From IMG/VR virus record IMGVR_UViG_3300020198_000101, positions 1 through 24,125 of that record: a stretch of DNA of 24,125 nt. One strand, written 5' to 3'. This document shows, piece after piece, positions 2,151 through 19,813 of the stretch; position 1 is the stretch's first letter; each line of letters opens with the position of its first letter. The DNA comes from a virus. The notes beneath the pieces are model-generated. The model was given only the letters and a program-made list of their open reading frames with translations. It searched no databases and was not told the DNA's origin. Both the position numbers and the translations under genes were made by a program.

Positions 2151-2162
2151 GGGGTCACCTCC
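2144..2162. repeat. 19-bp exact repeat at the XkdW-like/next-gene junction, copy 1
   Basis: The 19 bases tgctcatggggtcacctcc recur exactly at 3075-3093. On the minus strand they encode the last codons of an XkdW-like protein (EVTP, stop) and the first codons of the next receptor gene (MS). They contain the Shine-Dalgarno GGAGGTGA. Confidence 0.9.
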
Positions 2163-3081: not shown

Positions 3082-3093
3082 GGGGTCACCTCC
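3075..3093. repeat. 19-bp exact repeat at the XkdW-like/next-gene junction, copy 2
   Basis: Exact second copy of 2144-2162. It again spans the EVTP-stop end of an XkdW-like gene and the MS start of the following receptor gene, with GGAGGTGA inside. Confidence 0.9.
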
Positions 3094-3413
3094 AGGGGCT
3101 TGGGATACTTAGCTTTGACAGCAGCACAAGCTGCGTAATAGGCGTCCAGCTTGCTGGTGTCACCCTCTGATGCCCAATACAAGGCGTCTGCTAGCTCGGT
3201 AACTGGCGGGTATTCAGGTTGCCGTTGGCGTTGGTAGGCAGTGGCTGCGGCTGCAGCTGCGATTGCGTTCCAAGCAGATTGAGCTAGAGCCTGGTCAAAC
3301 TCAAACGGTTCCCCAGTCTCCTGATTGGTGACGACAAGATCGTCAAGGGTGTTGCCTTGAATGGTGAGAAGCGCATCTGGATACGCAGCTCTGATGCCTG
3401 TATGCCAGTCCAT
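3078..3413 (-). CDS. XkdW-like small tail-fiber-associated protein, copy 1 (111 aa)
   Basis: The frame is open from 3443, but I place the start at ATG 3413-3411, which overlaps the upstream TAA as TAATG and has GGAGGT nine bases upstream. The resulting N terminus MDWHTGIRAAYP matches the usual start of this family. Next come a GEPFEFD turn, an Ala-rich helix, YQRQRQPEYPPVTELADALYW and DAYYAACAAVKAKYPKP, then EVTP. The pattern (RAAYP; D-L-Y-W; KYP-K-P) is that of XkdW-like proteins found beside tail fibers in many phages; their role is probably in fiber assembly. It is a paralogue of the protein at 2147-2458 and pairs with the fiber-tip gene just upstream. Confidence 0.75.
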   Translation of the reverse strand: MDWHTGIRAAYPDALLTIQGNTLDDLVVTNQETGEPFEFDQALAQSAWNAIAAAAAATAYQRQRQPEYPPVTELADALYWASEGDTSKLDAYYAACAAVKAKYPKPLEVTP

Positions 3414-4036
3414 TACGCTGCTACCTCCATGACCGTAATCCAACTGATGCCTCTTTCATAACTAAAACTATTACCATCGACTACAGTTCTGTTTAAGTAA
3501 AACGTGGTAGCTGTTGCTTGAAGAGCCGTTGGAGTATATGTAATTGTGTTTGTATTTGCTGGTCGCCCAGAGTCAGGAAACATATGACAGAAAGCACTGT
3601 CAGGTGTTGATGCGTGATCATCTGCATAAGTCATTGCAAACGAAACTATGCCGGGATTTCTTGATCCATAAGACGATGGCAGCACAACTGTTCTTGTGCC
3701 AGAAATAGTACGCGCAAACGCTGCCATTGCGTTATAAGAAGGGCCTCCCGTTTCTCCCATAAGGGAGAATGAAACCAACATCAAACTGGTGGATGTTGTT
3801 GGCGTGATGTTCACGCTAAAAGGCATATCAGTATGAGTCTGCGCTGATTGACTGACTGTGGTTGCTGTTTCGTATTGAGTGCTCACCACCTGCAGAATCT
3901 TTCCCCCAACACCTGCTGCCAACTTGGCGGCGGTGACTGCACCTGCTGCAAGGTCATCAGATGTAATGGAACCGTCAGGAAGACCGCCTGCGCTGATGCC
4001 AGTAACAGTGCCGGACCCGTTGATAGTGATAGGCAT
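3413..4036 (-). CDS. Tail fiber tip / receptor-binding domain protein, KILQV family, copy 1 (207 aa)
   Basis: ATG 4036 starts two bases after the stop of the main tail fiber gene. Residues 1-45 (MPITINGSGTVTGISAGGL, then SITSDDLAAGAVTAAKLAAG) form the common short fiber-attachment leader. GGKILQVV at 44-51 opens a beta-rich tip domain with SVNITPTTSTSLMLVSFS and ends TTFYLNRTVVDGNSFSYERG then ITVMEVAA, parallel to the protein at 2455-3081. Between the shared ends the two sequences differ strongly, so they probably recognise different ligands. The DNA of the tip domain is about 42-45% G+C in three lines counted, lower than the leader. The product is probably carried on, or alternates with, the main fiber; free-standing tip subunits are inferred, not shown. 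Confidence 0.75.
   Translation of the reverse strand: MPITINGSGTVTGISAGGLPDGSITSDDLAAGAVTAAKLAAGVGGKILQVVSTQYETATTVSQSAQTHTDMPFSVNITPTTSTSLMLVSFSLMGETGGPSYNAMAAFARTISGTRTVVLPSSYGSRNPGIVSFAMTYADDHASTPDSAFCHMFPDSGRPANTNTITYTPTALQATATTFYLNRTVVDGNSFSYERGISWITVMEVAA
3417..3440. repeat. Fiber-tip 3' boundary repeat, copy 2
   Basis: Second copy of 2459-2482, with two mismatches over 24 bases. Confidence 0.85.
3886..3901. repeat. Fiber-tip 5' boundary repeat, copy 2
   Basis: Exact second copy of the 16 bases at 2904-2919. Confidence 0.85.
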
Positions 4037-4038
4037 GA

Positions 4039-5430
4039 TCAGACCACCACCCAGTTGGAATTGTTTGGAATAGTCACGGTGACCCCGTTGTTAATTACGA
4101 TAGGCCCTGCACTGAGGGCGTTTTTTCCTGCCGTGATGGAATAGCTGGTAGTGATAGTGGACGAGTTCTCGTAGAACACGTCATCCGTACCACCACCTGC
4201 TGCCCCACCAGCAGTGCCCCAGCTCAGTACGCCAGCGGCGTTTGACTTCAGGGCATGACCAGAGACCGTGGCATCCGTAGCGGGCAGCGTCCAGGTGACG
4301 TTGGCTGCAATCGCGCTCGGAGCTTGGAAAGCTACATATTGACCACCTTGGCCAGTTGCCTCACCAAAGCGTAGGTCTGACTGGTTATCAAGCAACACGT
4401 CACCAGTGACCGTACCACCTGTCAGGTTCAGCTTCTCGTCAACCAGCTCCTGGATCGCCCCCTGCACATTGTTGGAAGCAATCGTGCCAAAGGGAGCAAA
4501 TACAATGTTGGCAGCATCACCAGGCACATAAGCCGTCACCCAGATAGTGCCGGTGTAGACCCGCATAGCCGACAGCGTGGTGCTGAAGTACAGGTCACCA
4601 GCGTTCAGCGGATCGCCGTCGTTATCCAGGGTTGGATCAACGGCAAAGCTGCCTAGGTAGCGGTCGTCAAACTGATCAAACGCTGCCAGTGCTGAGGCAG
4701 CAGAGTTAGCAGCAGCAGTTGCGCTGTTAGCTGCGTTTGTTTCACTGTCAAAAGCGTTGTCTTCGCTTGTGGCTGCGTTGGTGGCCGATGTGTTGGCAGC
4801 TGTAGCTGAGTTTGCAGCAGCTGTTGCGCTGTTGGCTGACGCTGTGGCGCTGTTGGCTGACGCTGTGGCGCTGTTTGCAGATGCAGTTGCGCTGTTAGCC
4901 GAAGCGGTAGCGCTGTTGGCTGCGTTAGTTGCCGACGTGCTAGCAGCGCCAGCGCTAGCAGCTGCAGCCGTTGCGGATGCACTGACTGCGCCGACGTTAG
5001 AGTCGACATACGTCTTTGTTGCTGCGTCATTGGCGCCAACGGGTGCGCCGACGTTGATGATTCGCTGGTTGCCAGCCGTTGGCAGGCCCGTAGCCGAGTC
5101 AATGCTGACCGTTTGCTTCAGGCTGTCGTCCAGCTCCTGCTCCAAGAACAGGTGCTGCAGGTTGCTGGTGTCCAAGTCACTGGCTACCAGCGTGGACCCG
5201 TCGACAAAGTCGACCAGGGGGGTGTTAGCCGGGGTGATCCGGCGCACCTCCACCCTGATCCCGTTTGCTGGCGCAGAGGCCAGCAGCACCGTGGTGTTGT
5301 TGACGTAGGTGTACGCCGTGTCAACGAAGTTGACGAAGACCTTGACGTGCTCCTTCTTGATGTACTGGAAGGGGATGGCGTACTGGGTGGTGGCCCCGTT
5401 GCCGGTGTAGACGACGTAGGAGTAGGCCAT
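4039..5430 (-). CDS. Tail fiber protein with T7 gp17-like N terminus (463 aa)
   Basis: ATG 5430 overlaps the stop of the giant internal protein as TGATG, with AGGTGA seven bases upstream. Residues 1-105 match the T7 gp17 N-terminal virion-attachment domain: YTGNGATTQYAIPFQYI, VEVRRITPANTPLVDF, DGSTLVASDLDTSNLQ. Residues ~120-150 contain NVGAPVGANDAATKTYVD, a usual linker. Residues 150-247 are an Ala/Ser/Thr/Asn-rich stalk with heptads NSATASA (about 172-212), expected to form a trimeric coiled coil. Residues 258-303 (YLGSFAVDPTLDNDGDPLNA, then GDLYFSTTLSAMRVYTG) and 330-405 are standard fiber modules, and the end is a short beta-rich cap (VTIPNNSNWVVV). It is shorter than T7 gp17 (553 aa) and lacks a large tip, which may be supplied by the separate tip proteins downstream. 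Confidence 0.9.
   Translation of the reverse strand: MAYSYVVYTGNGATTQYAIPFQYIKKEHVKVFVNFVDTAYTYVNNTTVLLASAPANGIRVEVRRITPANTPLVDFVDGSTLVASDLDTSNLQHLFLEQELDDSLKQTVSIDSATGLPTAGNQRIINVGAPVGANDAATKTYVDSNVGAVSASATAAAASAGAASTSATNAANSATASANSATASANSATASANSATASANSATAAANSATAANTSATNAATSEDNAFDSETNAANSATAAANSAASALAAFDQFDDRYLGSFAVDPTLDNDGDPLNAGDLYFSTTLSAMRVYTGTIWVTAYVPGDAANIVFAPFGTIASNNVQGAIQELVDEKLNLTGGTVTGDVLLDNQSDLRFGEATGQGGQYVAFQAPSAIAANVTWTLPATDATVSGHALKSNAAGVLSWGTAGGAAGGGTDDVFYENSSTITTSYSITAGKNALSAGPIVINNGVTVTIPNNSNWVVV
4828..4932. repeat. Tandem 21-bp repeats encoding the fiber stalk heptads
   Basis: Five consecutive 21-base units begin at 4828, 4849, 4870, 4891 and 4912. The first two are identical and the others diverge at a few positions. 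Each encodes one seven-residue period (NSATASA/AANSATA) of the tail fiber stalk. The unit length equals one coiled-coil heptad, so gain or loss of units would lengthen or shorten the stalk in frame. Confidence 0.9.
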
Positions 5431-8400
5431 CAGTAGTTCACCTGTTCAGTAAAGGCACGAGGATTTCTGGACGCTGGAGCGGTCGCCCCACCGTACTGAT
5501 TATCGCCGCCCATCCGCTTGCGCAAGTAGTCTTTTTTATCTTTGTCTTCTTGAGCGGCCTTTTCTTCTTTGGCAATTTCCTGGCCCTTAGCGGTTGTGGC
5601 CTTGTACTCCTTCTTGGCCAGCTCCTTGTATTTGGCAATTTCTGCTTGCAGGGCGGCGGCACGCAAGCTCGTGTACTTGCTGGAAGCCCCTTCGATTGGC
5701 CAGGACTTGTACTGCTGCGACTCGATCAAGGCGGTAGCTGACTGCAGGAACGTGCGGCCAGTCAACTCATCCTTTACTGTGGCAAAAATCTGGACGTAGT
5801 CCTCCAGCTCGCTTGGCTTAAGACGCATTTCAGTGCCAAAGTCGGAAGCGCGAGGACCGCTGAAGGTAGTGCCCTTGCCATGCAAGAGGGCCATTTCCTC
5901 ATGTACTGGGGTCATTATTTGGCGCTTTACCTGCATGGAGGACCATGGCGCAAACTGCAGTAGGCCTTGCAGCCAAGGCATTTCAGCAGGAATTTGGTCA
6001 GAGCCCAGGATGCCAACGGTCAAGATGGGGGCCCCAGTAATGAAATCCCTGCGTGCAGGCAAGGTGTTTGAGAAGCCAGGTACTCCATTGCGCACTTCGT
6101 CCAACGTTTCCTGGAAGAAGCCCATTAAACCGCCAATTTCGCTGGGGTCGACGGAGCGGGCTATTTGATCTGTTTCACGGCGAGCTGCACGCAAGGCAGA
6201 GCTGTAAGGCACCATGCTGGCCGCAAGACGAGCAAAGTACCGGGACCAAGCGTCTCGCTGGTTAGCGCCAGTCATGACCTTGCTGGGGTTAAAAGCAGCT
6301 TCGTAAAACTCAGTAAATCCTTGGAAATAGGCTTTGCTTAAAACGCCCATGGTCGACATGCGAACCACAGTCAACGTTAAGGCGGCGCCAAGGCGATTGC
6401 GGTTTTCATCTGACAAGCTGTTGGCAATGTCAACGTAGTCCCCAATGCCTCCAAAAAGGGTAGTGAACGGCTCAAAGGCCCGCATGGAGATTGGTTCTGA
6501 CCACCGACCTTCTTCGTCGCTCCAGACTTGGACTGTATAAGGAGCGCGTTGTTCAATATCTGTCCATTTTCTTCTTAGTTCAGGGTCTATGGGACCACCA
6601 CCGTTAAAGCGGATGTAACCCATTCCCGCGGCCATGCTTGCAAGGGCTAAAGCCGCAGTGCCAGTTGCCATTTCGCCCAAGGCTCGATCTCTAGTAAAGG
6701 CGTCTGCGCTAGTAATGTCTCGCCAGAAAGTATCTACAAAAACTGCAGCGGGCGTATTGCGTGCTGCGCCTTTAATAATGTTGACGCCAACTCGCATGAA
6801 AGGCTGAACAAACCTAACAACAGGGCCAATTCCAGGTACATTGGCAGCCCGGTTAAAAATTTCGCCAGGGTAAGATGTAAGGCGACCTGCAACTTGCAAA
6901 GGCCCTTCAGTCATAACTCCAGCTAGCTTGTCTCCAAACATGCCTTCGTTAATATATTTTTTTGCAAAATCTTGCAGTTCTTGCCCCTCAAGGCCGCGGC
7001 TCATTCCCAGTCGCACGCCTTCGTTGTAAGTGCGAGGCTCTAGCTGAGCCCAAATTGAGTCGGTGAAATTCACCGAATCCATAAATTTCTGAGCGTGTGG
7101 GCTGTCTAGGTGAACGTCAGCCAGGCTTTTGCCGTTAATTACGGCATCTTTGATTGCCTCATCCGTTCTGGCTGCAGCGTATTGCTGTGCCCATTTCCAA
7201 GCCTCAGGGCTCATGTCTTTCATGCCGCGCTCTACTGCCAGCTCCATGCCACGAGGCAAGTGGCGGACGTGCTCAAAAGACTGGCCGGCCAATGTGGAGT
7301 TAAAGGTGTCGACAGTCAGCGCAAGGCGAGTGGCGCCAGTGCCAAGAACACGCCACAGATGATTTGCAAGTTGCCCCAGAGGCGTTTTGGCGTATTCCAC
7401 GCCCATGTCCATGGTATTGACTGTCCAGCCAGTCATGGCCTTAGGGCCTTGCATCAACTCCAGTTGCGCTTCTTCTTTGGCAACACGCGCTAAATAGTCG
7501 ACAGTGCTGTTTTCAAGGTTAAACAGCGACTGGCCAGCTTTGAACGCATGCCCAGCGACTCGCAAGGCGTTGGACATGTTCATCCAATACTGCTGGTACA
7601 TCATTAACGAATACATTGCCCGCTTTGATTCACCCGTCAGGGCTGCCCCTGCAGCTTGCTGCAAGGGAAGACGGGCCAAGTTAAACATGCCGTTTGTAAG
7701 GTTAGTAGTAAGGGTTACGCCGCTGCTAATCAGGTTGTTAGTGCGCAGCATCAACAACGCATTAGGTTCAAGCGTTTTCACGTCGTCAAAGTTGCGATAA
7801 AACTTGGTGCGAGCTTTGCTGTCTGCGCCAATAGACACAAGTGTCTGCGCAAAAGCGTCAGCCGCTGCCATTGCCTTAGGCGTAATTTCACCGCCGTTGA
7901 CTGCCGCAGTCAGCTCTGGGTCAATCTTGTCGGTAATGGTCTCATCAATAGATTTACCTTGTTCGACCTCAAGTTCTTTTTTGATCAAGCCATCCACAAA
8001 CAAACCATCCACGTCAGTCCTTGCGGCGTCACCAGCGTCTGGTACTGCCGTGGCTGGCACGTCAACGGCGCCTTTGCCGTCGATGCGGTAAGGCGGGATC
8101 TCGTAATCCCTGGACATTTGCATTTCAAGGCCCATTTGGCCCCATGGGCGGGTAACGCGCATTACGGCTTGGTGTACCGCTCGGCTGGATTCTGCGGCAG
8201 AGATCAAGCGGGCCAGTCGCTCTGATTCGTTAAGGCCATCAAAGCTGGCACTGTTAAGCCACAAAGCCGCTTCACGCGATGCCTCTACTTGTTTCAGGTC
8301 GGCGTAAGCCATGGCGCGGTTGAGAGCGCCTTGCTCGTACTCACTGAATCCACGAGTTATCGCGTCAAGGCCTTTCATGATTGACTCGCCATCTTCGCCG

Positions 8401-11400
8401 TGGCGGTCAAACCAATCTTGGTTAGAGCGACGTAGTTGCTCAACGTTCATCACCGGTATGCCCGATTCCGTGGCCCGATCAGGCAGGACCTTGGACATGG
8501 CGTTGAGGCCTTCAACCAAGTTCTCTCGTTGTACGACGTAAATCGTTTTGCCAGAAGGCGATTGCACTTTTTGGAAGTTGTTGGCCATCAGGTCTTCCAA
8601 GGTGACCTCGCCGTTTTGCAGGGCTTTCTCGTTATTTACAACTTCTCGCGCAAACTGACGTACCCAGTTTTCATTGTTTGCAGGACCAGGAGGAGGGTCA
8701 ACAGGTACAGGACCCTCGGGCTCATCTGGCCTGATGCGAACGCGACCGCCTGACAAGGTTTCTTGTAAAGGCGCAAATTCACCAAGAGGGCGGCCTGCCA
8801 TCTCGCCTTGGTAAATGCGCTCAAAGACGTCATCCCAAGTCTGGAAGCCGTTGCCCTGAGCCCAGTTCCTGGTCGCCTCCAGGAATTTCAAGAACTTGTC
8901 AAACAAGGCTCGGACGCCTTTTGTCGTTTTGATAGGTTCGCCAGCTTGACGAGACAGGCTGTAGACAGCCGCAGACTCAGCAATAATTTCAACGTCATCT
9001 GCCAGCGCTAGGTCGGGTTGACCGCCGCGGGCAGCAATCTTTTCCAGCTCAGGACGGGCTGCACGCAGTACCGCTTTTTCTTGCGGGGTAGCAAGGTAGT
9101 CAATTACAAAGTGGACTGCCTCGTGGTAGCCAGTTCCCCGCAGCTGGTGGGGGTTTTTACCTGCAAGGGCAATACGAACCAGGTTTGTCACAGGGTCGTA
9201 CAGGCCAGCAGTAGTGATGTCCTTATCGGGCACGGAGTCGGGGATGCCCCAGTCCCTGCGTGCAGCAGCAATTTCGGCAGGAGTCAGCTTAATTTTGGGC
9301 TCAAAATTGACACTCAACTCTGGCCCTGCAATGCGCTTAAGCTCAGCGCGTAGATCGTTAAGGATCCGCCCTTGAGAAATAACCGGTCGCTTCCACAGCG
9401 GGGTTCTGAAGTCAGCAATCGCGTCACGTATTTCATTGGTAAGGCGTGCCAGCTCTGGGCCTTCGGCTGCCTTGGCTTGCTTGCTTAGTTCGCTCAGGCG
9501 GCGAATTAGGCGGGCGCCTTCGCCAACAGCGTTGAAGTCAGACCTGTCGATCTTTGCCCGGCTGGCGGTGCCGCCTTCTGCCGCAGCATCTGCGCGTTGG
9601 GCAAGGATCTGATCGCGCAGGGCAATGCGGTCTGCTGGCGGCATGTCGGCCAAGCCAGCAGCTAGAGCGCTGTCAATATCGGCAATTTGCTCGCGTGACG
9701 CGGCTGTAGCGGCTGTAGCGGGTGCGGGAGGCGCGGCTGTAGCGGGTGCAGTTGCCTCGGCCTCAATGGCATCGCGCTTGGCGTAGTAATCGTTGTAAGC
9801 CTTGAGCTGAGCCTCGTATTCGTCTCTGGCTTCAGGTGATACGCCCGCCTTGCCAGGCTTAATAGTTTTAACTTCTAGTTGGTTTTCGGCGTCCCAATAA
9901 ATTCGGACTGAATGAGTGCGTCGACCGCCGCCAGCGCGGATGCCTCCTTGATGCGCAAGGCCGCCATAGCCAAGTTTGGCCAGTTCAGCGTTTATTCCAT
10001 CAAACAGTTCTGTTAAATCACTGGCGCTATAACGCATGTTGTAACTAGCTCCGCGGGCGGTATCCAACATTTCGCCATAGCTCATTAACCCAGACTTTTC
10101 CCAGTCGCCCAGGATTTCATCCCACACTTCGCTGCCAGATTGCTTTTTAAGAGCGGCAACCTCGGGATCAGCGCTGTTCCAATCCAGCATTTCGTCTGCA
10201 TCAAAAAATTTGACCGGTTTCTTTTCTTTAGTCAAATAAATAATTGGCTTGTATTCTTTTGCCTGCGGCGGGTTGTCAGCCAGTTCCCGAAGGCGATTTG
10301 CCAGGTTAGTAGCTTGCTCAAGGTTGCCGAGCTTGGCGCCAGGGCGCAGGTCCGCCAGCAAAAACTGAACACGCTGCCTCAGTGCGTCGTCGATTGTGCG
10401 AGCCTCTTGGCCTGGGCGTTTTGTAATAACATCCAAATAGTTTTGAACAAGTTCATCGCCTCTTGCGCCTTGTAGCCATGCCCTGAACATGGCCTGCTCT
10501 TCAGCAAACCGAACCTTGCCTAGCCCCTGTTCATCTAAGGCTGCTGCAATTTCTTGCAGTCGTTCAGGTGCTGGTATGCCTTTATTCCGAAAACCAAGCA
10601 AAGTAATTTCTTCGCTAGTAGCACCTGCTTTTTTTAGAAGCCTTGTTAGGGGTTCGCCTCCGTATTCCCTTAATGCAGGAACGGGAATTTCGTTTTTAAT
10701 AGCAGCTTCTTTGCCTTTAGCTGTGTACGACCCTGCGGTGCTGAAATCGTCAGTCGTATAAAAACCGTTGCCAAACAGGTTGGTATTGGTCCAGTAATCG
10801 CCAGATTCCACACTCTTAGGAATACCGCCAGGAATCTCCTGGGCAGTTCCGTGGAAATACAACCCTTGGCCGCGAGTGTCGCCAGTGGCAACGGTTTTGC
10901 CACCAGATACAAGTTTGGGAGCAACCGGAGGTTCAGGCTCAGGGCCCAGGGCTGCAATGCGAGCCTGGATGTCAGACGACGCAGCAGCGGGGGTAGGCGC
11001 AGCAGCTGCAGCCGGCGGCTGCTCTAGCGGAAGCCGCGGCCCATTGATCTCATCCTCAATGGCTTGGCGCAGGCGGCCTACGTTTTCTTTGACGACCACA
11101 GCAGCGGTGCGCTTGCCCTTTACCTGGCCTGCCATCTCATTCAGCAGGTCGCGGACTGGGCCGGTGTAACCAGTCACCCGGTTAAACACCTCAACGGCAG
11201 CAGCGGCCTGCTCACGAGCGGCCTGACTGCCGGCCACGTCGATCACATTGCCAGCTGCCTCCATAACCCCTTTGCGGCCAGGAATCGCTGCAGACGTAAG
11301 CGCAACCATCTCCTCGCGCAGCGCCTTAAAAGCCTCTGTGCGGACGTTTAGCAACTGGTCAAAGTTGGAGGTTTTGAACATGTCCTCCATGCCAGGCAGG

Positions 11401-13172
11401 ACACCGCCAGACGGGCCACTGGTCTGGGCAAACTTGGCCTCCTGCATGGCCTGCAGGATCTTTTCAGCCGACCATTTGCTTTTGCTAGCAGCAGCAGCGA
11501 CGTCACGGACAATGGCCTCATCCAACGGCTCAGAGCCCAGGGCCATTGCCTTGGCCAGGTCCAGCTTGCCGGTGGCGCCCTTGTCAAAGATGTCCTGCGG
11601 CAGGCGGCTCAGGGGGATGGCCTTTTCTGCAACGGGGCCACGGACGTCAATGCTGCGCTGTCGCAGTTGGTCGACGCCTACGCCCATGTCGCGCATGATC
11701 TTGGCGGCATCCCATGGGGTGCCCATGCCTTCGGCCATGTTTTCCATGGCGCCAATAGCGCGAGCCTGCTCAGCAGACGGCGCCTCAATCTCCCAGGTCA
11801 GGATGTTCTGCCGGCCAGATCGCTTGGCCAAGTCAAGGCGGTTGTGGCCATTAACCACATACAGCAGGCCGTCGGCTGGATCGCGCCAGACGCTGACGAT
11901 TTTTCCAAACAGCGGGTCGTATTCGGTGGCTTTTGCAAGAGAGCCAGATGCGCCAGTTTTGTTAAGGCGGCCCGCCTCCTTGAATTGGAAACGCTGCGGG
12001 TCGGTGGCAATGTCAGCTACCGAGGTTTCCCGTACCTGGCTGTACGAGGGCAGGATGGTGCCACGGGCTTCAGGAGTTACAGCGCCAACCGAGTCAGGTA
12101 CGGTGCCAGCAGCACGGGCAACGGCTACCTCAACGTCGTCAATCGCTTTCTTGTAGTCAGCTTCAGCCTTAAGGGCAGACTCTTGCGCCGGCAAACCTGG
12201 CTCAGCTATTTCAGCAGCGGGGGGCTTGCCAGGCTTAGCAGCAGCAGGAGGAGCGCCTGGTTCGGTAACAGCCTTGGCTGTTGTCTCAACGGTTTGCTCA
12301 GCAACAGGTTTGGCGCCCCGAAATGCCTTGCCCCAGGCCACCGCAGCCTTAGCGGCAAAGCCCAAGGTCTGAATAATTCCGTTAGCTGCAGGCTCAAGAA
12401 ACAAGCTCTCAACTGCGTTTTTCCAGCGAGCTTCTGTCGCCGTGTCGCCAGGCTGGGAGCGGACCAGATCTGCCAGTGGACGACCAAGAGGGGTGTCAAT
12501 CTGACTTTCGACCCACTGCAATGCTTGGCTTGATGTGCGGACTGCGTCCGAAACAATGCCGCCATCAGGATCAGCAGCCCGATCCTCCAGATACCCCAAT
12601 GCGCTATCTGATAGGCGCTTCTCTTCAGGCTTAAAAGCGGCATAGGCCGTAACCATGCCGGCAGGTGCCTCTTTGACGCTGGAGACAGCAATACGGCCAG
12701 CCAAGCCCTTCGCGCCTGGCGCCGACCTCATGGCCTGAGCTGTTTGGCTAACAACTGCTCGGGCGGGAGCCGTGACACGAGCAGCCGCTCCTGCCCCAGG
12801 AAGGCGCCTTGCAGCAGCTGCGCCTCTTCCTAGGCCAAATCTGGCCAGAGCAAACCCCAGGCCAGCTTGGACAAAACCAGCTACAAAGCCCTCTGCAGCG
12901 TTGACCTCTACCTCTGGTAAAGCCGGGAACACGCCGAGGATTTTGGCGTCAGGGGCACCAGGCTTTCGGGGAGTGCCCAGCTTAGAAAACTCATCAGCCG
13001 GCAGATTGCCCAACAGCTCTTGGGTAAGGTCGCGGGCCCCCTTAAGAATGACCCGGCCGGTGTCAAAAGGGATTCGGGTGTCGCGCTTTTTCTTGGGATC
13101 TGGAAAGCTCTGCGGGACATTAGCCTCGACAACCGCGGCTCCCTGGGAGTCAGTGGTGACCTTGTAAGGCAT
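5430..13172 (-). CDS. Giant polyvalent internal virion protein at the gp16 position (2580 aa)
   Basis: ATG 13172 follows the gp15-like stop by two bases, with AAAGGGAT upstream. It is about twice the size of T7 gp16 (1318 aa). Domains in order: an Ala-rich N terminus (90-180); a ParB/sulfiredoxin-like domain (~370-500) with VVNGHNRLDLAKRSG at 439-453; an ADP-ribosyltransferase-like domain (~768-1105) with LYFHGT (H774), GNGFYTTDD (Y805) and a late HSVRIYWD strand; a zincin-like domain (~1300-1410) with GYHEAVHFVIDYL (H1350, E1351, H1354) and a possible third ligand in EIIAES (1395-1400); and a conserved-looking C-terminal region (1800-2450) with PFMRVGVNIIKGAARNTP and a hydrophobic helix at 2168-2188. 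Ala/Pro linkers lie at ~719-733, 1138-1159 and 1485-1500. This layout is the 'polyvalent protein' class of phages. By position it should be ejected with the DNA. I see no transglycosylase domain like that of T7 gp16. Confidence 0.85.
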   Translation of the reverse strand: MPYKVTTDSQGAAVVEANVPQSFPDPKKKRDTRIPFDTGRVILKGARDLTQELLGNLPADEFSKLGTPRKPGAPDAKILGVFPALPEVEVNAAEGFVAGFVQAGLGFALARFGLGRGAAAARRLPGAGAAARVTAPARAVVSQTAQAMRSAPGAKGLAGRIAVSSVKEAPAGMVTAYAAFKPEEKRLSDSALGYLEDRAADPDGGIVSDAVRTSSQALQWVESQIDTPLGRPLADLVRSQPGDTATEARWKNAVESLFLEPAANGIIQTLGFAAKAAVAWGKAFRGAKPVAEQTVETTAKAVTEPGAPPAAAKPGKPPAAEIAEPGLPAQESALKAEADYKKAIDDVEVAVARAAGTVPDSVGAVTPEARGTILPSYSQVRETSVADIATDPQRFQFKEAGRLNKTGASGSLAKATEYDPLFGKIVSVWRDPADGLLYVVNGHNRLDLAKRSGRQNILTWEIEAPSAEQARAIGAMENMAEGMGTPWDAAKIMRDMGVGVDQLRQRSIDVRGPVAEKAIPLSRLPQDIFDKGATGKLDLAKAMALGSEPLDEAIVRDVAAAASKSKWSAEKILQAMQEAKFAQTSGPSGGVLPGMEDMFKTSNFDQLLNVRTEAFKALREEMVALTSAAIPGRKGVMEAAGNVIDVAGSQAAREQAAAAVEVFNRVTGYTGPVRDLLNEMAGQVKGKRTAAVVVKENVGRLRQAIEDEINGPRLPLEQPPAAAAAPTPAAASSDIQARIAALGPEPEPPVAPKLVSGGKTVATGDTRGQGLYFHGTAQEIPGGIPKSVESGDYWTNTNLFGNGFYTTDDFSTAGSYTAKGKEAAIKNEIPVPALREYGGEPLTRLLKKAGATSEEITLLGFRNKGIPAPERLQEIAAALDEQGLGKVRFAEEQAMFRAWLQGARGDELVQNYLDVITKRPGQEARTIDDALRQRVQFLLADLRPGAKLGNLEQATNLANRLRELADNPPQAKEYKPIIYLTKEKKPVKFFDADEMLDWNSADPEVAALKKQSGSEVWDEILGDWEKSGLMSYGEMLDTARGASYNMRYSASDLTELFDGINAELAKLGYGGLAHQGGIRAGGGRRTHSVRIYWDAENQLEVKTIKPGKAGVSPEARDEYEAQLKAYNDYYAKRDAIEAEATAPATAAPPAPATAATAASREQIADIDSALAAGLADMPPADRIALRDQILAQRADAAAEGGTASRAKIDRSDFNAVGEGARLIRRLSELSKQAKAAEGPELARLTNEIRDAIADFRTPLWKRPVISQGRILNDLRAELKRIAGPELSVNFEPKIKLTPAEIAAARRDWGIPDSVPDKDITTAGLYDPVTNLVRIALAGKNPHQLRGTGYHEAVHFVIDYLATPQEKAVLRAARPELEKIAARGGQPDLALADDVEIIAESAAVYSLSRQAGEPIKTTKGVRALFDKFLKFLEATRNWAQGNGFQTWDDVFERIYQGEMAGRPLGEFAPLQETLSGGRVRIRPDEPEGPVPVDPPPGPANNENWVRQFAREVVNNEKALQNGEVTLEDLMANNFQKVQSPSGKTIYVVQRENLVEGLNAMSKVLPDRATESGIPVMNVEQLRRSNQDWFDRHGEDGESIMKGLDAITRGFSEYEQGALNRAMAYADLKQVEASREAALWLNSASFDGLNESERLARLISAAESSRAVHQAVMRVTRPWGQMGLEMQMSRDYEIPPYRIDGKGAVDVPATAVPDAGDAARTDVDGLFVDGLIKKELEVEQGKSIDETITDKIDPELTAAVNGGEITPKAMAAADAFAQTLVSIGADSKARTKFYRNFDDVKTLEPNALLMLRTNNLISSGVTLTTNLTNGMFNLARLPLQQAAGAALTGESKRAMYSLMMYQQYWMNMSNALRVAGHAFKAGQSLFNLENSTVDYLARVAKEEAQLELMQGPKAMTGWTVNTMDMGVEYAKTPLGQLANHLWRVLGTGATRLALTVDTFNSTLAGQSFEHVRHLPRGMELAVERGMKDMSPEAWKWAQQYAAARTDEAIKDAVINGKSLADVHLDSPHAQKFMDSVNFTDSIWAQLEPRTYNEGVRLGMSRGLEGQELQDFAKKYINEGMFGDKLAGVMTEGPLQVAGRLTSYPGEIFNRAANVPGIGPVVRFVQPFMRVGVNIIKGAARNTPAAVFVDTFWRDITSADAFTRDRALGEMATGTAALALASMAAGMGYIRFNGGGPIDPELRRKWTDIEQRAPYTVQVWSDEEGRWSEPISMRAFEPFTTLFGGIGDYVDIANSLSDENRNRLGAALTLTVVRMSTMGVLSKAYFQGFTEFYEAAFNPSKVMTGANQRDAWSRYFARLAASMVPYSSALRAARRETDQIARSVDPSEIGGLMGFFQETLDEVRNGVPGFSNTLPARRDFITGAPILTVGILGSDQIPAEMPWLQGLLQFAPWSSMQVKRQIMTPVHEEMALLHGKGTTFSGPRASDFGTEMRLKPSELEDYVQIFATVKDELTGRTFLQSATALIESQQYKSWPIEGASSKYTSLRAAALQAEIAKYKELAKKEYKATTAKGQEIAKEEKAAQEDKDKKDYLRKRMGGDNQYGGATAPASRNPRAFTEQVNY

Positions 13173-13174
13173 AA

Positions 13175-15952
13175 TCAGATCCCTTTCTGCAAGAGTTTTC
13201 TCAGCTGATCGTATCGGCTTCCGAAGATTCGTCTCCCCTCTGCCGCGCTAACGACCTGCTGCCTGGTGTAGCCAAAGACTCCCTCGTACTGACCAGGGGC
13301 TTTTGCAATATCAACAATAGGCTTGTTGCCCGCAACCGCCGAACGGTTGATTAGGTTGGCTGCAACCTCAAACTTGCCTGCGGCTGTTGGGCCCGCTTCC
13401 GTCAAAACCGTAAAAGTAAGGGCGTTAAGGTCTTGTGGCGAAAGTTTGCCAGCGCGGCTAAGGGCAAGCGGTACGACCCTGGGGTTGAAGTCAAAGAAAA
13501 AGTTTTCTCTGGGGTCGCTTTGGTAGTCGCCTGCTTGCTTGAAGCGTATTTGGGTAGTGCCACGGAATGAGTTAGCTCCACGCAAAGCACGAATTGCGCC
13601 TAGCAAACTGGTAGAACCAACGGCCATTGGACCCATTGTTGCCAATGGCATCTCTCTTGCACTGGCGGACGGCACAATGGCGTTTAATGCAGATTCGGTC
13701 AGCCCAAGGATCCTGCGACTTAGCCGCTGAGCCAAGCCAATGTCGGGGTTGACCATGGCCAGTCCTAGGCTGGATCCGCCTGCGCTGGGTTGAGCAGAGC
13801 TAATTTTCTGGCCTTGCAACTGTTGAATTCGTTTCTCGTATCCCTTGGGAAATGGAACGCCAGGATGGACCATCTTGAATTGATCCAGGAAGAACTGAAC
13901 AGGGTTGTTCCCGTAACCAGCTCTTTTGATCATTAACTGCATTTGCGGGCTTATCCGGCCGTTGTCTAGGTAGTCGTTAAAGTTTTTGTCAAAAACATCT
14001 TTGCTGAACAAAACGTTGGCCTTGACCTGGTCCGCCAGTTGCTGGTTTTGCTGTGGATTGCCACGGCCTGTGCGCTCAACAATTTTTAATTTGTTAAACC
14101 ATGCCTCTGGGGAAACATACTTTGGCGCTTGCAGTTCTTGTTGAACTGCCTGCTTAGTAGGCGCGGCTTCAGTCTCTTTTCTTTGTTCAATAGCAAAACC
14201 CTGAACCTGCTGCATCATCTGAGCAGGCGTCAATTTGTTAGCCAGCCCACTGCGGCGGATAGATTCAAGTCTTTGGTCAATTTCAACGCCGCGTTGTATT
14301 AGTCGAGCTTCCTCTTCTCGTGTAACAGTTTGACCTCCAGGCGAATTTTGCAATACAGTTAAAGCTATTTCATCATCCATCAAGTCTTTTCGAACTTTTG
14401 CAGCGGCATTAGTAAATGGTTTCATGTCCGCTTTTAGCAGCTCTTCGTAATTAGCAATTAACGAGCGGCCGGTGGCAGGATCCATTAATCCACTTGCTAC
14501 CAAACTTTGAATTCTGGGGATTTCAGTCCTTGGATTTTTAGCGTAGGAAAATACGTTTTCACGCGCAACCCGCGCCTGCTCTGCTGCAGAGATCGTTCGG
14601 CCAGCTGCGCCTGCATTATTGATTTGGGCTAACGCGCTAGCTTGCTGATCCATAGGCACGTTTTGTAATACATAAGCTGTTGCGTTAGCTTCGGCTTGCT
14701 GCCGTTGAGCAGGAGTTAGGCTTGGATCGCCAACTCGAAACCGAGTAACAATATTTTGACCTTGCTCCTCGCCTGCCTCCTTTTCAAAATACTCTGTTTT
14801 TTCGTTATAGCCTGCATAAGCAGACATCAACTTTTCAGACAGCCTAATTAAAGCAGACGGGCCGCCCTTAGCGCCAAGTTGATCAATTAACTTTGTTCCT
14901 TCAGGGCCAACAGTAATTTGTGAATAAATTTGCAGAGCTTCGCCAGATAAATAATTAAACCTATCACGATTTAATTTGCCGTCCGGCCCTATTGAGTTAG
15001 TCATTACGGCAGCAACTATATCCTCATCCGTGCTTTCAATAAGTTTCTGGTATTGAGGAATTCCTAGCTGTTGGCGAGCGTCAGTATTCTGTTGACTCAA
15101 AGTAGCAACGACCGCAGCGCGATCAATTTTTGTTGCACCGAATAGGCTGGTGTAGTTTTTTTGCCTTGCAGACTCAGCCTTGCGGGCGTTGGCAGCTACT
15201 ACATCAGCGTTGTGTTCCCTGTTCAACTCGCCATATTTAGCTTCTATTAGCGGAAGTAATTCCTTGCGCAGCACTGGGTCGTCAGGGATGCTTACCAGCG
15301 ACGATATTGCTGATAGCACTCGTGGATCGCCTGGGAGAATCTCGTCACGAGGTGTGTCGCCGATTTTGTTTATTAAGGCAAATCGGCTTGAGGCTGTATT
15401 GAGCGTATTAAGAGTAAATGCTCTGGCGTTGTAGCGGTTTGTATAGGCCAACTGCAGAGGGCTGAGCGCCTGCAACCGTTCGTACAATGCACGAGCTTCA
15501 GAGTCGCCAGCAGTCGCCTGCCTATAAAGCTGGTCGCGCACGTCTGCAAATGTTTGCCCTGGGAACTTAGCTTGAAGATCACGGTTGATTTGCTCCCCTA
15601 CGATGCTGGCCTTTTCTTGGCGCATCTTTTCCATGGCCACATAGGTGTCACCAAATCTGCCAAGAGTTTCGCTAAAGCTGCCTAAGGATTTTGCCAGTGC
15701 AGCCATGTCTCCCGACGGCTGGGGCAAATCAGGTGGCCTAGGAATAACTGTTGCGCCACCCAGGATTGGACCCCTTGACTGAAAAAAGGTATCAACTGGC
15801 CTTGCCGCAGGACTAAGGGCAGGGAGGTCAAAAGACCTGCCGCCGATAGGCGTACCTGCTCCCATCTGGGGAGTGCCGCCGATAAGACGGCTTGCGTCCT
15901 CTGCACCAGTGACGGTGCCAAGCGCTTTGCCGGTGCCAAGTTGCGATGCCAT
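13175..15952 (-). CDS. Internal virion protein at the gp15 position with C-terminal SleB-like cell-wall hydrolase domain (925 aa)
   Basis: ATG 15952 lies seven bases after the gp14-like stop. The first ~810 residues are largely helical and polar, as in T7 gp15 (747 aa), which forms part of the DNA-ejection channel. There is a Pro/Gly-rich opening and long Lys/Glu/Gln-rich helices. The last ~90 residues match the SleB/Hydrolase_2 pattern: LNALTFTVLTEAG with the likely catalytic Glu852, AANLINRS (N869-R870) and GQYEGVFGY (Q888-Y889). This domain cuts peptidoglycan in spore and phage proteins. In T7 the muralytic activity sits in gp16, so here it appears moved to the gp15 partner. Some lines in the middle (14881-15000) fall to 35-40% G+C. 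It is probably delivered to the periplasm during infection. Confidence 0.8.
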   Translation of the reverse strand: MASQLGTGKALGTVTGAEDASRLIGGTPQMGAGTPIGGRSFDLPALSPAARPVDTFFQSRGPILGGATVIPRPPDLPQPSGDMAALAKSLGSFSETLGRFGDTYVAMEKMRQEKASIVGEQINRDLQAKFPGQTFADVRDQLYRQATAGDSEARALYERLQALSPLQLAYTNRYNARAFTLNTLNTASSRFALINKIGDTPRDEILPGDPRVLSAISSLVSIPDDPVLRKELLPLIEAKYGELNREHNADVVAANARKAESARQKNYTSLFGATKIDRAAVVATLSQQNTDARQQLGIPQYQKLIESTDEDIVAAVMTNSIGPDGKLNRDRFNYLSGEALQIYSQITVGPEGTKLIDQLGAKGGPSALIRLSEKLMSAYAGYNEKTEYFEKEAGEEQGQNIVTRFRVGDPSLTPAQRQQAEANATAYVLQNVPMDQQASALAQINNAGAAGRTISAAEQARVARENVFSYAKNPRTEIPRIQSLVASGLMDPATGRSLIANYEELLKADMKPFTNAAAKVRKDLMDDEIALTVLQNSPGGQTVTREEEARLIQRGVEIDQRLESIRRSGLANKLTPAQMMQQVQGFAIEQRKETEAAPTKQAVQQELQAPKYVSPEAWFNKLKIVERTGRGNPQQNQQLADQVKANVLFSKDVFDKNFNDYLDNGRISPQMQLMIKRAGYGNNPVQFFLDQFKMVHPGVPFPKGYEKRIQQLQGQKISSAQPSAGGSSLGLAMVNPDIGLAQRLSRRILGLTESALNAIVPSASAREMPLATMGPMAVGSTSLLGAIRALRGANSFRGTTQIRFKQAGDYQSDPRENFFFDFNPRVVPLALSRAGKLSPQDLNALTFTVLTEAGPTAAGKFEVAANLINRSAVAGNKPIVDIAKAPGQYEGVFGYTRQQVVSAAEGRRIFGSRYDQLRKLLQKGI

Positions 15953-15959
15953 GGTTCTA

Positions 15960-16721
15960 CTAATACAGTTTTAGGCCTGGGGTAAATGCTCTTTGAGTGA
16001 TACTTGCAGTTTTACCGTCTGTTAGTTTCTTAAATGCGTCAACTCCTGGCGGTGGCTTTGGAAGGTTGCTGTATAGGGTTGCGCCGCTTGAAATGCCGCC
16101 CATTACAGCACTTGCACCTCCCAGGACATATGGCAATGCGCTTGGCGCTGCTCGTTCTATTGGCCTGATCGGATCTAAGTTCACCTGTTTAAGGTACGGC
16201 TGGTTCTGCGCCATGCGATTCGCGTAGTTCGCTGCAGCACCGCGCTTGTCCTGCTGTTGCTGGTTGATGGCAAAGGCCAGGTTGCGGTCTGTCGCAAAGT
16301 CAAACTGCGCTCGCTGCCTGTAGTAGTCGGCAATCAGGTTGTCGACGGTGTTGCCGATTCGACCAGCTGCGCTGACCTCCCCCTTGGCCTGCAAGAACGC
16401 CTTGCCTGTCTCTTGCTTCTTCTGTGCTGCAGCCTCCTGCTCTTGCATGATTCGCAGGTTTAGCTGGCTGATGTCGTTTGCGTAAGCAAGACCTGCCAGC
16501 TCTGCGTTCTGCTGGTTCAGGGTCTCCTGCATCATTTGTTTCTGGTTCTCGTAGGCGTTGGCAGCATCGGTTTGCATCATTGCAAACTGATAGTTCTGCT
16601 GCGCCACAGCGTTCATGTATGCCGTCTCTTGCTGCGCCTGTTGGTACGCCGCAACCTGCTGGCCAATGCCAAGGCCGGCAGAGACAACGCCAAAAATAAT
16701 GGGAACCGCTGGGCCGCACAT
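15960..16721 (-). CDS. Internal virion protein B, gp14-like (253 aa)
   Basis: ATG 16721 is three bases after the gp13-like stop and is preceded by GAGG at good spacing. The N terminus MCGPAVPIIFGVVSAGLGIG resembles the start of T7 gp14 and of cyanophage homologues: an initial Met-Cys, then an apolar helix rich in Gly. Residues 25-120 are a Gln/Ala-rich helical region (AAYQQAQQ, QKQMMQETLNQQNAE, RIMQEQEAAAQKKQ), followed by AAGRIGNTVDNLIADYYRQR. A second apolar stretch lies at ~200-218 (LPYVLGGASAVMGGISSG). In T7 gp14 is ejected into the outer membrane to form the start of the DNA channel. The protein is somewhat longer than T7 gp14 (196 aa). Position between gp13-like and gp15-like genes supports the call. 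Confidence 0.8.
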   Translation of the reverse strand: MCGPAVPIIFGVVSAGLGIGQQVAAYQQAQQETAYMNAVAQQNYQFAMMQTDAANAYENQKQMMQETLNQQNAELAGLAYANDISQLNLRIMQEQEAAAQKKQETGKAFLQAKGEVSAAGRIGNTVDNLIADYYRQRAQFDFATDRNLAFAINQQQQDKRGAAANYANRMAQNQPYLKQVNLDPIRPIERAAPSALPYVLGGASAVMGGISSGATLYSNLPKPPPGVDAFKKLTDGKTASITQRAFTPGLKLY

Positions 16722-16724
16722 GAT

Positions 16725-17192
16725 TTAGATCCTCACGAACTCGTAGAACAGGCGGCTTTCTGGCCCCCAGTTTGGATGCTTACGGATAAAGGTAAAGCCC
16801 ATGTACTTCAACCAGCGGACGTGGACCACGTTGCGGGCGTCCACCACGTTGAACAGCACTGGGTAGTCAGCGTGCAGCTTGCGCAGCTGCAGCTTGGATT
16901 CCTTGAGAAATGCCCGGCGATCACCGTGGTCGTCAAGCATGGCCTGGCATCCCAGCATCCAGATCCGGCCAGCCCTGGTGCCCTCTGGTATCACGCCCCA
17001 AGCGCCCACCACGTTGCCGTGCCTGCTGACCATGGCCATGCACGGACGGCTGGAAAAGAAGCAGTGCAGCATGGTTTCCCGTGGGCTGCTGCCTGACTGT
17101 GCTTTAACCTCAGCCACGTCCTCTGGTCGCATGCCGTCAGCCACAGCAACGACGTCACGAACAGTGGCAGGGCGCTGGTGGCTCCCCTTCAC
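16725..17192 (-). CDS. Internal virion protein A, gp13-like, acetyltransferase-fold-like (155 aa)
   Basis: The frame is open from GTG 17249, with an ATG at 17228. I prefer GTG 17192-17190, because it overlaps the tail-tube B stop by four bases (GTGA) and makes the N terminus (RPATVRD near residue 7) match where T7 gp13 begins (RPTKSTD). No start has a clear ribosome site. The rest follows gp13: an AEVKAQSG segment, GNVVGAWGVIPE, RIWMLGCQAM, RAFLKESKLQLRKL, FNVVDARNVVHVRWLKYMGF and a final strand LFYEFVRI. The HVRWLKYMGF motif also occurs in GNAT acetyltransferases, so databases may label it so. T7 gp13 is needed for virion morphogenesis; catalysis here is unproven. Confidence 0.8.
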   Translation of the reverse strand: MKGSHQRPATVRDVVAVADGMRPEDVAEVKAQSGSSPRETMLHCFFSSRPCMAMVSRHGNVVGAWGVIPEGTRAGRIWMLGCQAMLDDHGDRRAFLKESKLQLRKLHADYPVLFNVVDARNVVHVRWLKYMGFTFIRKHPNWGPESRLFYEFVRI

Positions 17193-19813
17193 ATCCGTGA
17201 CGCACGACTGTGATACCACCCTTCCCATTCGCAGGACTGCACTCTGCACGGTAATGGACTGTTGCTGAGTAATTCAATCTTGGCACCTGTATTGCGTGTC
17301 ATCACAGGGGCGCGGAACTGGCCTTGTTTTAAGGCAGGTGCGCCCAGTGGCGTGCTGCCCAATGTGTAGCCCTCAAACGTGTAGGTCTGGGCATCGCGGC
17401 CTTCTGCTGTCACCCGCAGCTGGAAGTGAGCAGTCTTGTCAAATACCACGGTCCAGGTGCGCAGCTGCAACCTGGGACCTGCAGCTACAGCGACACCACC
17501 GCCTGCTGGCTGTTCCTTAATAAAGGGCGTGGAGAACTCATACGTCATCTGGTACAGCTCACCCACAAAGAACTTGGCTTGGCTCAGGTCGCCACGCACA
17601 ACAATCGTTCCGTTGCCACCAGCCCCGCCTGTAAGCGTCTCTGACACGATCTGGAGGGTTTGGCCGTGCTGCAGTGTGTTGCCAGCCACAAGCCTGCCTA
17701 CAAGGGCCATGGTGCCCGTAGCGGTCATGGGGTAGGGCAGGGTGATTGTCGACTGCACATCCAGGCCAGCGGGCTGTGTTACTGCCACCGTGCATGCCGC
17801 CTCAGATACCTTGCGATCCAGCAGCAGCTCAAACGAGCTGCCTGTGTCAGTGGTCTCAGGGCGCAGTGCAATGCGCTCCATGTAGACACCGTCGCCGTAC
17901 TGGCACAGCAGGTACAGGTCGCTGTCCAGGATGTCGGCACCAATGATTTGCTTGCCGGGCTGGAACTGCCAGAAGGACCAGGACGACTGCAGCTTGGTGT
18001 CCTCCTCAAAGAAGAACTTGTAGAAGTAGACCCGGTCGGTCTGGTTCTTGCTGATGGCAATGACAGTTTCTTCCGACACCGACGCTGCCAGGGTGGCCAG
18101 GTTTGCCGGGATAAAGCGGGGGATCGCTGCTGTCACCTCCTCAGACATAGGCACAGGGCCACTGGCGTCTGGCAGGAAGAACTCGCGCAGGCCTGAGAAC
18201 TCACCCTTAGGGATGGCGAAATAGATGGTGCGTCCAACGCCCACTGGGTCGACGTTGGATTGCATGTCAAAGGTGGTGATGGCCGTGACCGTTGCGGTCT
18301 TTGGTGTCAGCGGCGAACCCAGCGTTGTGATGCCAGTGTCAAGGCGGAACTGGCCATGGCGGCTGAACAGCAGCAGCGTGTTGGCAAAGGCCAAGCTGCT
18401 GACCAAAAAGTTGATCTCGGTGCCGCCTGTGCTGATGTCAATGGGGTCACTGTCCACGACGGTCTGCACTGTCTCTGGCCAGAACCGGTCGTAGCTATCC
18501 GCTGCAGACAGGATCACGTTCTCGTCAGCCAGGAACACCAGCCTGTTGCGGAACAGGTTGATGTTCTGGATCTGCTTGCCGACAAAGGTGGGCTCTGGGG
18601 CGGTGATCGTGTCACCTGCCACACGAGTAGACCAGTCGAACTTCTTAAACGTGAACGTGCCGTTTGTGTTGCGCATCAACACGTGCGGCATGGTCGTTTG
18701 ATCCAGTTTGTACTTGGAGCCAGGCGCAGCACATTCGCGCCACACGCCCTTGCCAAACCCGCTGCCAGCTGTGGTTTCAAACCGCAGGTAGTAGTCGTCA
18801 AAGCTGGTACTGGCGCTGCCCTGCACCTTGACGATGAAGCCATGATCGCCAATCAGCGGCAGCCTGGTCACTGCATCGACAGTGCCCTTGATCGCAATGA
18901 TGCCTTCTGCGGTCCTGGTGTCCGTAGCTTCCAGCGTGTAGTCACCGCCGTCGTTTTTGGTGATCCGCACGATGTACTCGTTTGCGGTCACCGTAAAGCC
19001 ACCGCCCAGGGCTGACTGCAAAGACGTGGCCAGGTTGCTGGCAATCGTCACGGTGCTGGGGTTGGGGCTGCCACCTGTATTAACGGTGGTGGTAGAGACG
19101 GTGTTGCCGTTGACGGTGATGCTGTAGGTGGTGTTGTAGTCCGCGCTGCGCACAAACACCATTGACCTGGTGCCCCAGTCAGCAGACAGGTTGAACGAGT
19201 AGCGCCGGCCAATGGCTGAAGCTGCTGAGGCTGCCGGTGCAAACGTCACCGTGGTGGCGTTCACAGCAGTGACAGTTGCATTTGCTGGCACGTCTGGGCC
19301 AATGACGCTCATGCCGACAGAGACCCCCGTGGTGCTGGCAAACACTGCAGTGGTGGTGGTGCCTGCTGCTGAGCTGGTCAGGGCGACGCCGTCCAGCATG
19401 CTGACGGTCTTCTCGCGGTTGACGATGAAGGTGGCGTCAGCAACGGAGGCAACGCGGAACTGCGCTGAAGGGTCTGAAGCGTTATTGATGTCCAGGTAGC
19501 CCACGCCGTCGGGCACTGTGACCGTCTGTGCGGCACCGTTCAGGTCAAAGACCTTGATGTCCCCGTCCCTGATGTAGACCATGTAGCGGATGGTCCCGTC
19601 ACGGTCGACGATGTTGACAAACGGGCGACCAGTGCCTGAGGACCCAGAGAACAGTTTGCCCAGGTTGTAGGAGGGTGGGCGCTTCTTGAGGCCCTCTACG
19701 GGGCTAGGAAGGCAGTTAATAACCGACTCAGCCTGCGATGACAGCCGCAACGCCGCAGGCTGCTGGCTGACCCCATTGATCAGGTTGGGGATAGAGCTGC
19801 TGACAAGAGGCAT
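17189..19813 (-). CDS. Tail tubular protein B, T7 gp12-like (874 aa)
   Basis: ATG 19813 directly follows the tail tubular A stop. The N terminus VSSSIPNLINGVSQQPA, with NCLPSPVEGLKKRPPS, is the signature of T7 gp12, the nozzle of the tail to which the fibers attach. Further matches include ADATFIVNR, SMVFVRSADYNTTYSITVNG, FKKFDWSTRVAGD, NLFRNRLVFLADENV, DSDPIDIS and WSFWQF. The protein is about 80 residues longer than T7 gp12 (794 aa). Part of this is an apparent Ala/Thr/Val insert at ~143-205 (GTTTTAVFASTTGVSVGMSV and on), placed between VNREKTV and the NLSADWG strand. It overlaps the gp13-like start by four bases. It acts as part of the tail through which DNA and ejection proteins leave. 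Confidence 0.93.
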   Translation of the reverse strand: MPLVSSSIPNLINGVSQQPAALRLSSQAESVINCLPSPVEGLKKRPPSYNLGKLFSGSSGTGRPFVNIVDRDGTIRYMVYIRDGDIKVFDLNGAAQTVTVPDGVGYLDINNASDPSAQFRVASVADATFIVNREKTVSMLDGVALTSSAAGTTTTAVFASTTGVSVGMSVIGPDVPANATVTAVNATTVTFAPAASAASAIGRRYSFNLSADWGTRSMVFVRSADYNTTYSITVNGNTVSTTTVNTGGSPNPSTVTIASNLATSLQSALGGGFTVTANEYIVRITKNDGGDYTLEATDTRTAEGIIAIKGTVDAVTRLPLIGDHGFIVKVQGSASTSFDDYYLRFETTAGSGFGKGVWRECAAPGSKYKLDQTTMPHVLMRNTNGTFTFKKFDWSTRVAGDTITAPEPTFVGKQIQNINLFRNRLVFLADENVILSAADSYDRFWPETVQTVVDSDPIDISTGGTEINFLVSSLAFANTLLLFSRHGQFRLDTGITTLGSPLTPKTATVTAITTFDMQSNVDPVGVGRTIYFAIPKGEFSGLREFFLPDASGPVPMSEEVTAAIPRFIPANLATLAASVSEETVIAISKNQTDRVYFYKFFFEEDTKLQSSWSFWQFQPGKQIIGADILDSDLYLLCQYGDGVYMERIALRPETTDTGSSFELLLDRKVSEAACTVAVTQPAGLDVQSTITLPYPMTATGTMALVGRLVAGNTLQHGQTLQIVSETLTGGAGGNGTIVVRGDLSQAKFFVGELYQMTYEFSTPFIKEQPAGGGVAVAAGPRLQLRTWTVVFDKTAHFQLRVTAEGRDAQTYTFEGYTLGSTPLGAPALKQGQFRAPVMTRNTGAKIELLSNSPLPCRVQSCEWEGWYHSRASRM

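Follow-up and report, generated by a model that had tools for sequence, protein, structure and literature searches.

A polyvalent effector block between the conserved flanks of a gp16-slot ejection protein in a T7-like podovirus

The DNA analysed here, a 24,125-base IMG/VR virus record that we refer to as the window, encodes on its minus strand a polyvalent ejection-type protein of 2580 aa in the slot of T7 gene 16 (5430..13172), an assignment that draws on the open reading frame, its neighbours and homology to internal virion protein D. Its middle carries three predicted domains, resembling ParB, an ADP-ribosyltransferase (ART) and a zincin metallopeptidase. Because both ends of the protein are homologous to internal virion protein D, this effector block is, as far as can be judged from sequence, embedded within the gp16-slot ejection protein, between conserved flanks. 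The reading that we favour, and consider likely, is that a water-borne T7-like podovirus has a gp16-slot ejection protein whose interior has grown into an effector cassette, which would be delivered with the DNA and whose domains would act in the host.

Genomic context

The preliminary description of this DNA had claimed one unbroken 7.7-kb frame, and we found an ATG-to-stop run of 2580 codons with no internal stop (13172..5430) on the minus strand, a strand that the description had not given. Read along that strand, the genes follow the T7 order: portal, scaffold, capsid, gp11-like protein, nozzle, gp13-like, gp14-like and gp15-slot proteins, the 2580-aa protein and a gp17-like tail fibre. 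The first four were named by eye, from position and sequence. Profile matches identify the nozzle (minus strand; PF25675, 1e-246), the gp13-like internal virion protein (16725..17249, minus strand; phrog_308, 2e-35), the gp14-like internal virion protein (15960..16721, minus strand; PF24072, 1.1e-13) and the gp17-like tail fibre, which has an N-terminal T7 tail-fibre domain (4039..5430, minus strand; PF03906, 3e-36). The gene for the 2580-aa protein lies between those for the gp15-slot protein (925 aa; 13175..15952, minus strand) and the tail fibre, in the gp16 slot that had been proposed for it and among late or virion genes, as is characteristic of polyvalent proteins. In the complete related loci where both neighbours could be recognised, the homologue likewise has the gp15-slot gene and the tail-fibre gene as its immediate neighbours, one on each side, all on one strand.

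Within the window, at 1101-4036, a 58-residue C-terminus ending in ITVMEVAA is common to two proteins of the fibre region (3413-4036 and 2455-3081; 38% identity), and a short gene of similar type comes after each of them. A tail module appears to have been duplicated locally.

Conserved flanks of the ejection protein

Searched directly and in full length against Pfam, NCBIfam and PDB sequences, the 2580-aa protein gave nothing useful, and relatives and profiles were therefore needed. Near the N-terminus, residues 122-276 (12345..12809, minus strand) show homology to internal virion protein D at its N-terminal part, aligning with residues 153-277 of the CRP-114 protein (hhalign 96.7%, E 4e-10). 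At the opposite end, residues 1497-2558 (5499..8684, minus strand) form a C-terminal ejection-protein body that is almost wholly helical in the AlphaFold2 (AF2) model. Within it, residues 2117-2383 are matched by phrog_6651, 'internal virion protein' (1e-21), and the body aligns over 608 columns with a profile of five proteins of the internal virion protein D type (hhalign probability 100%, E 8e-50). With tblastn, the matches annotated as internal virion protein D came from Roseobacter and Desulfovibrio phages; a Synechococcus phage contributed an internal virion protein.

The internal virion protein D of marine and environmental Autographiviridae (the Roseobacter phages CRP-114, CRP-125 and CRP-804, S-TIP28, and the Desulfovibrio phage ProddE) occupies the same slot and has both the homologous N-terminal segment and the body, but these proteins are only 1192-1334 aa long and gave no match to our ParB, ART, zincin or SDLD profiles (SDLD being a recurrent domain described below). 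In these proteins a few hundred residues rich in Pro and Ala lie between the two homologous regions. The 2580-aa protein had been described as standing in place of the T7 gp16 layout; it does occupy the gp16 slot, but with both ends homologous to internal virion protein D it is not a simple replacement.

The single hydrophobic helix of the preliminary description was not recovered. We found no single clear membrane helix but several mildly hydrophobic stretches, with Kyte-Doolittle 19-mer maxima of 1.51 at residue 96, 1.38 at residue 2261 and 1.25 at residue 2169; a long predicted helix with a mildly hydrophobic, conserved stretch (AF2 model and hydropathy; residues 2158-2183; 6624..6701, minus strand) lies just before the motif NGGGP. 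The Ala/Pro linkers reported earlier can be seen in the translation at about residues 715-740 and 1140-1180, although none reaches 20 Ala/Pro per 30 residues. A fold search with the C-terminal body produced membrane-protein matches at E 0.4 and above, which we disbelieved at TM-scores of about 0.1, and a search of solved structures with the predicted body gave no match. The body was also without relatives in the bacterial and archaeal genomes searched, and therefore offers no hint of the host.

T7 gp16, the largest internal core protein of its virion, sits in the same position, and by analogy an ejection role would be expected for the 2580-aa protein. The two differ in that T7 gp16 has 1318 aa, an N-terminal transglycosylase and no effector block. 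Comparison of the two by hhalign detected no homology, and we rejected a relationship to T7 gp16 by sequence; the protein is therefore a 'T7 gp16' by slot and relatives only. The missing similarity is unremarkable in view of the fast evolution of gp16-type proteins, and gp16-like proteins have been reviewed as ranging from 609 to 1337 aa, with T7 gp14, gp15 and gp16 being ejected to build a conduit (PMC8954989).

A Pfam search of the 2580-aa protein for a transglycosylase gave no SLT match. The C-terminal part of the gp15-slot protein (13178-13675) is endolysin-like (phrog_12490, 5e-4), and its counterparts carry SLT_3 in P-SCSP1g (1e-13) and SLT in L021 (0.004). Wall cutting, the job of the N-terminus of T7 gp16, probably falls here to the gp15-slot protein, through its C-terminal domain; a swap of this activity from gp16 to gp15 is already known in K1E/K1-5 (PMC8954989). 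The gp15-slot C-terminus looks exchangeable among endolysin-like, SLT and SLT_3 types, on comparison of the window with L009, L021 and L022 (P-SCSP1g).

Domains of the effector block

The first domain, at residues 366-720 (11013..12077, minus strand), is ParB/Srx-like with a helical extension. Residues 367-546 are matched by phrog_21 (8e-37), a family labelled 'portal protein', within the C-terminal part of its profile (positions 1005-1183 of 1362), and relatives match phrog_1033, 'ParB-like partition protein', in a phrog profile search. The window's domain is 40.7% identical over about 85 residues to gp43 of a Salisaeta phage, a protein on record as structural, and Pfam ParB_N scores above its cut-off at exactly that segment (gp43 1812-1896). 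The domain has an NGHNR box at residues 441-445, of which N441, G442, H443 and R445 are invariant in the 32 relatives aligned; the GHxR box is kept in 46 of the 48 ParB-bearing members. These observations uphold the ParB-like motif noted earlier. A Pfam search of the window's protein gave no direct ParB match, with no ParB model at E up to 1, and the link to curated ParB profiles runs indirectly, through the phrog matches of relatives and through gp43. An hmmsearch of the PDB with the ParB profile placed chain-length determinant proteins on top, which we rejected as chance matches between helical proteins, with ParB at E 0.06. The ParB-like regions of L042 and L044 are without the GHxR box and are perhaps inactivated copies.

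The second domain, residues 762-1115 (9828..10889, minus strand), resembles ADP-ribosyltransferases of the HYD type, its candidate triad being H774, Y805 and D1094 in the motifs FHGT (773-776), GFYTTDD (803-809) and RIYWD (1090-1094). All three residues are invariant in the five relatives aligned, and their placement on strands 1, 2 and 5, as in the ART-PolyVal / Tox-ART-HYD2 active site, follows from the order of the motifs and not from a confident model. Pfam DUF3990 matches all five of these ART relatives (best 1.3e-6) and ART-PolyVal three of them (best 6e-4). The set of ART-like motifs seen earlier is borne out in this way by relatives, while the window's own copy taken alone stays below Pfam cut-offs, matching DUF3990 only (E=0.08, 13.1 bits against a cut-off of 32.2). 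A PDB search with the ART profile returned six weak matches, none credible as an ART. A second site of ART-like insertion, equivalent to residues 1692-1743 of the window's protein and thus inside the C-terminal body, is found in L062 (12276-12820; Pfam PARP 2.6e-6, ART-PolyVal 0.012) and, by eye only, in P-SCSP1g. ARTs occurred in only about 3% of podoviruses in a 2022 survey of viral NAD and ADP-ribose systems (PMC9503650).

The third domain, residues 1271-1475 (8748..9362, minus strand), is zincin-like, as indicated by alignments, AlphaFold2 and BFVD. The HEAVH motif, reported earlier and located at residues 1350-1354, stands up well: H1350, E1351, H1354 and a downstream glutamate, E1395, are invariant in 27 relatives with identities down to 22%, and all 58 profile-matched zincin domains contain HExxH, against 0.6% of shuffled copies of the 2580-aa protein. 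Structure prediction gave a divided answer for the block, with AlphaFold2 confident in the zincin part (pLDDT of about 90-97 across most of it) but mostly of low confidence in the ART part, where the N-terminal half was poor and the remainder fair to good. A PDB fold search yielded many matches to the zincin region of lethal factor, all weak (E 0.15 and above). A match to FtsH (E 0.012) in a PDB search with the zincin profile was set aside, its likeness being confined to the surroundings of HExxH.

Exchange of the middle among relatives

Domain profiles applied to at least 70 related viral loci, of which over 30 include the entire ORF, show that the flanks persist and the middle varies. In other words, comparison of gp16-position proteins in related phages revealed the same slot, constant flanks and exchanged middle domains. 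The window's lineage has ParB, ART and zincin. Other combinations are ParB and ART (L009), ART and zincin (L043), ParB, SDLD and zincin (for example, L010 and L014), and ParB and zincin (many loci); there are also members with ART (L040), ParB (L056), zincin (L061) or SDLD (L060) as the sole domain, and one in which none of the four was found (L059). On a tree of the body from 33 members, the minimum numbers of changes are 2 for ParB, 3 for ART, 7 for SDLD and 4 for zincin; the tree is a quick one, so that these counts are approximate, and gains are not told apart from losses.

L009, for example, has a body 70% identical to that of the window and yet is without a zincin. Since such members exist (L009, L040, L056, L059 and L060), the zincin is dispensable for the core role of the protein. 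Every complete member with a zincin carries it as the final domain ahead of the body, at a gap of 11 to about 90 residues. Of 33 members, 13 have the uncharacterised SDLD domain (signature F(A/T)(S/N)DLDRAAY(I/M)L) ahead of the zincin; carriers of this domain include L010, L014, L021, L038, L044 and a gene of the uncultured marine phage MedDCM-OCT-S31-C1 (P0017, residues 1058-1159).

A split version and other known systems

In MedDCM-OCT-S31-C1 (Nohivirus), ParB, SDLD and zincin domains occur in the same order just upstream of the gp16-slot gene. Whereas the window has one fused gene, this phage has two separate ones, an effector gene of 1484 aa ending 2 bases before a gp16-slot gene of 1145 aa. 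The S31-C1 gp16-slot protein shows a marginal likeness to the window's body, and among predicted structures (BFVD) the effector block is matched best, at 2e-8, by the S31-C1 'large polyvalent protein associated domain' protein. From this arrangement it follows that effector block and gp16-slot protein are linked as neighbouring modules, which are fused in the window's family.

The gp16-slot gene of Prochlorococcus phage P-SCSP1 (MPP-C) is a true member of the family, with 28% identity and a ParB, zincin and body layout, and with an ART-like insert, seen by eye, at another site. It has been annotated as 'hypothetical' and functionally unannotatable, 'internal virion protein' being a guess from size and position (PMC9860041). 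Our sequence comparison now supplies predicted domain content for the P-SCSP1 homologues.

Polyvalent proteins such as P1 DdrB and the RNA polymerase-ART protein of a Roseovarius podovirus combine several unlike effectors in one late-gene product, and ParB, ART and zincin domains all belong to their repertoire (PMC5512222). The 2580-aa protein likewise joins at least two biochemically unlike domains in one polypeptide, namely ParB, ART and zincin, and its description as polyvalent agrees with these sequence features. The description of polyvalent proteins in that paper does not include a T7-type ejection-protein chassis, and a search of its text for gp16, internal virion and Autographiviridae found no mention (PMC5512222). 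In the open-licence full-text literature that we searched, we came across no previous account of an internal virion protein combined with ParB, metallopeptidase or ADP-ribosylation. On sequence grounds, this is a known kind of protein embedded here in a T7-like ejection protein.

The top PDB fold match (probability 0.93, E 0.054) was gene 27 of Anabaena phage A-4L, or cyanophage A4, a pre-ejectosome protein of 1717 aa (PDB 9k3a chain B) from a different phage family. Near its C-terminus (residues 1371-1449), motifs resembling ART (YHGT...GTYF) and ParB (VVDNH) can be seen by eye. We rejected it as a homologue, hhalign to the ART and ParB profiles not being significant, and keep it as a lead only; the protein may be an independent parallel.

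Proposed mechanism and alternatives

The published model for polyvalent proteins has them packaged and injected, and the ART Alt of T4 is reported to be packaged and injected (PMC5512222). For the present phage we propose that the capsid would incorporate the 2580-aa protein together with the gp14- and gp15-slot proteins, and that this protein would exit ahead of or together with the DNA. The C-terminal body would join the trans-envelope conduit and take the effector block as far as the edge of the cytoplasm or inside it. At that site the zincin, as the last domain before the body, might cut the polypeptide and free the block, the ART would modify a host protein, and the ParB domain could target host or incoming DNA as an NTP-dependent nuclease or binder. 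Release is the weakest of these steps, because zincin-less members exist and because the S31-C1 zincin already terminates a separate effector gene, so that a place beside the body need not mean that the zincin cuts that junction.

The constant position of the zincin before the body could also be read in another way, in which the central domains work in the producing cell at assembly and only the gp16-like body is ejected. Processing of the ejection protein, or of other head proteins, would then fall to the zincin, and the ParB and ART domains would serve DNA packaging or late takeover. A precedent exists in P1 DdrB, a polyvalent protein with ParB and peptidase domains that is processed to a shorter form before it is packaged (PMC5512222). 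However, the zincin-less L009, L040 and L056 keep ParB or ART, late structural genes would be an odd site for assembly-only functions, and fusion within the ejection protein favours co-delivery. We consider action at assembly unlikely.

The loss of the GHxR box from the ParB-like regions of L042 and L044, together with the wide variation in size known to be tolerated in gp15 and gp16 (PMC8954989), would suit a further alternative, that the ParB-, ART- and zincin-like folds are mainly structural, as non-catalytic spacers or as DNA- or membrane-contacting parts of the conduit. Against this, the ART H/Y/D residues (5 of 5), HExxH (58 of 58) and GHxR (46 of 48) have been retained while the remainder of the domains diverged to 25-40% identity, a pattern that makes a purely structural role quite improbable.

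That the frame is a chance ORF, an assembly chimera or another annotation artefact can be dismissed with near certainty, no point in its support having been found: four other IMG/VR contigs (L002, L003, L004 and L006), possibly from one phage population, contain identical stretches of the protein, so that the ORF is no assembly accident, more than 60 homologous ORFs exist, mostly in the same gene context where this is visible, and isolate genomes carry a homologous ORF of 2563 aa.

Implications

The usual description of T7-like ejection proteins is of a conduit for DNA that includes a wall-cutting domain. In the present case, proteins of the same class have interior domains that are predicted to be host-directed enzymes and that are exchanged among relatives. 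With delivery of the effector block as the preferred reading, the apparatus of infection probably has a second use, as a vehicle for enzymes that attack the host. A broader picture, which we put forward tentatively and hold to be somewhat doubtful, is that widespread environmental T7-like phages use the gp16-slot protein as a carrier with constant conduit ends and swapped enzymes, released by the zincin after entry and modifying the host before phage genes are expressed.

If the enzymes are delivered, small lytic podoviruses, which are short of room for early genes, could hit host proteins and DNA at time zero. The analysis also proposes a function for proteins of cultured marine cyanophages that have so far been annotated as 'hypothetical', and the presence of homologues in these cultured phages makes the idea directly testable. 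Such proteins would provide a natural test of the amount of folded cargo that a podovirus ejectosome can pass.
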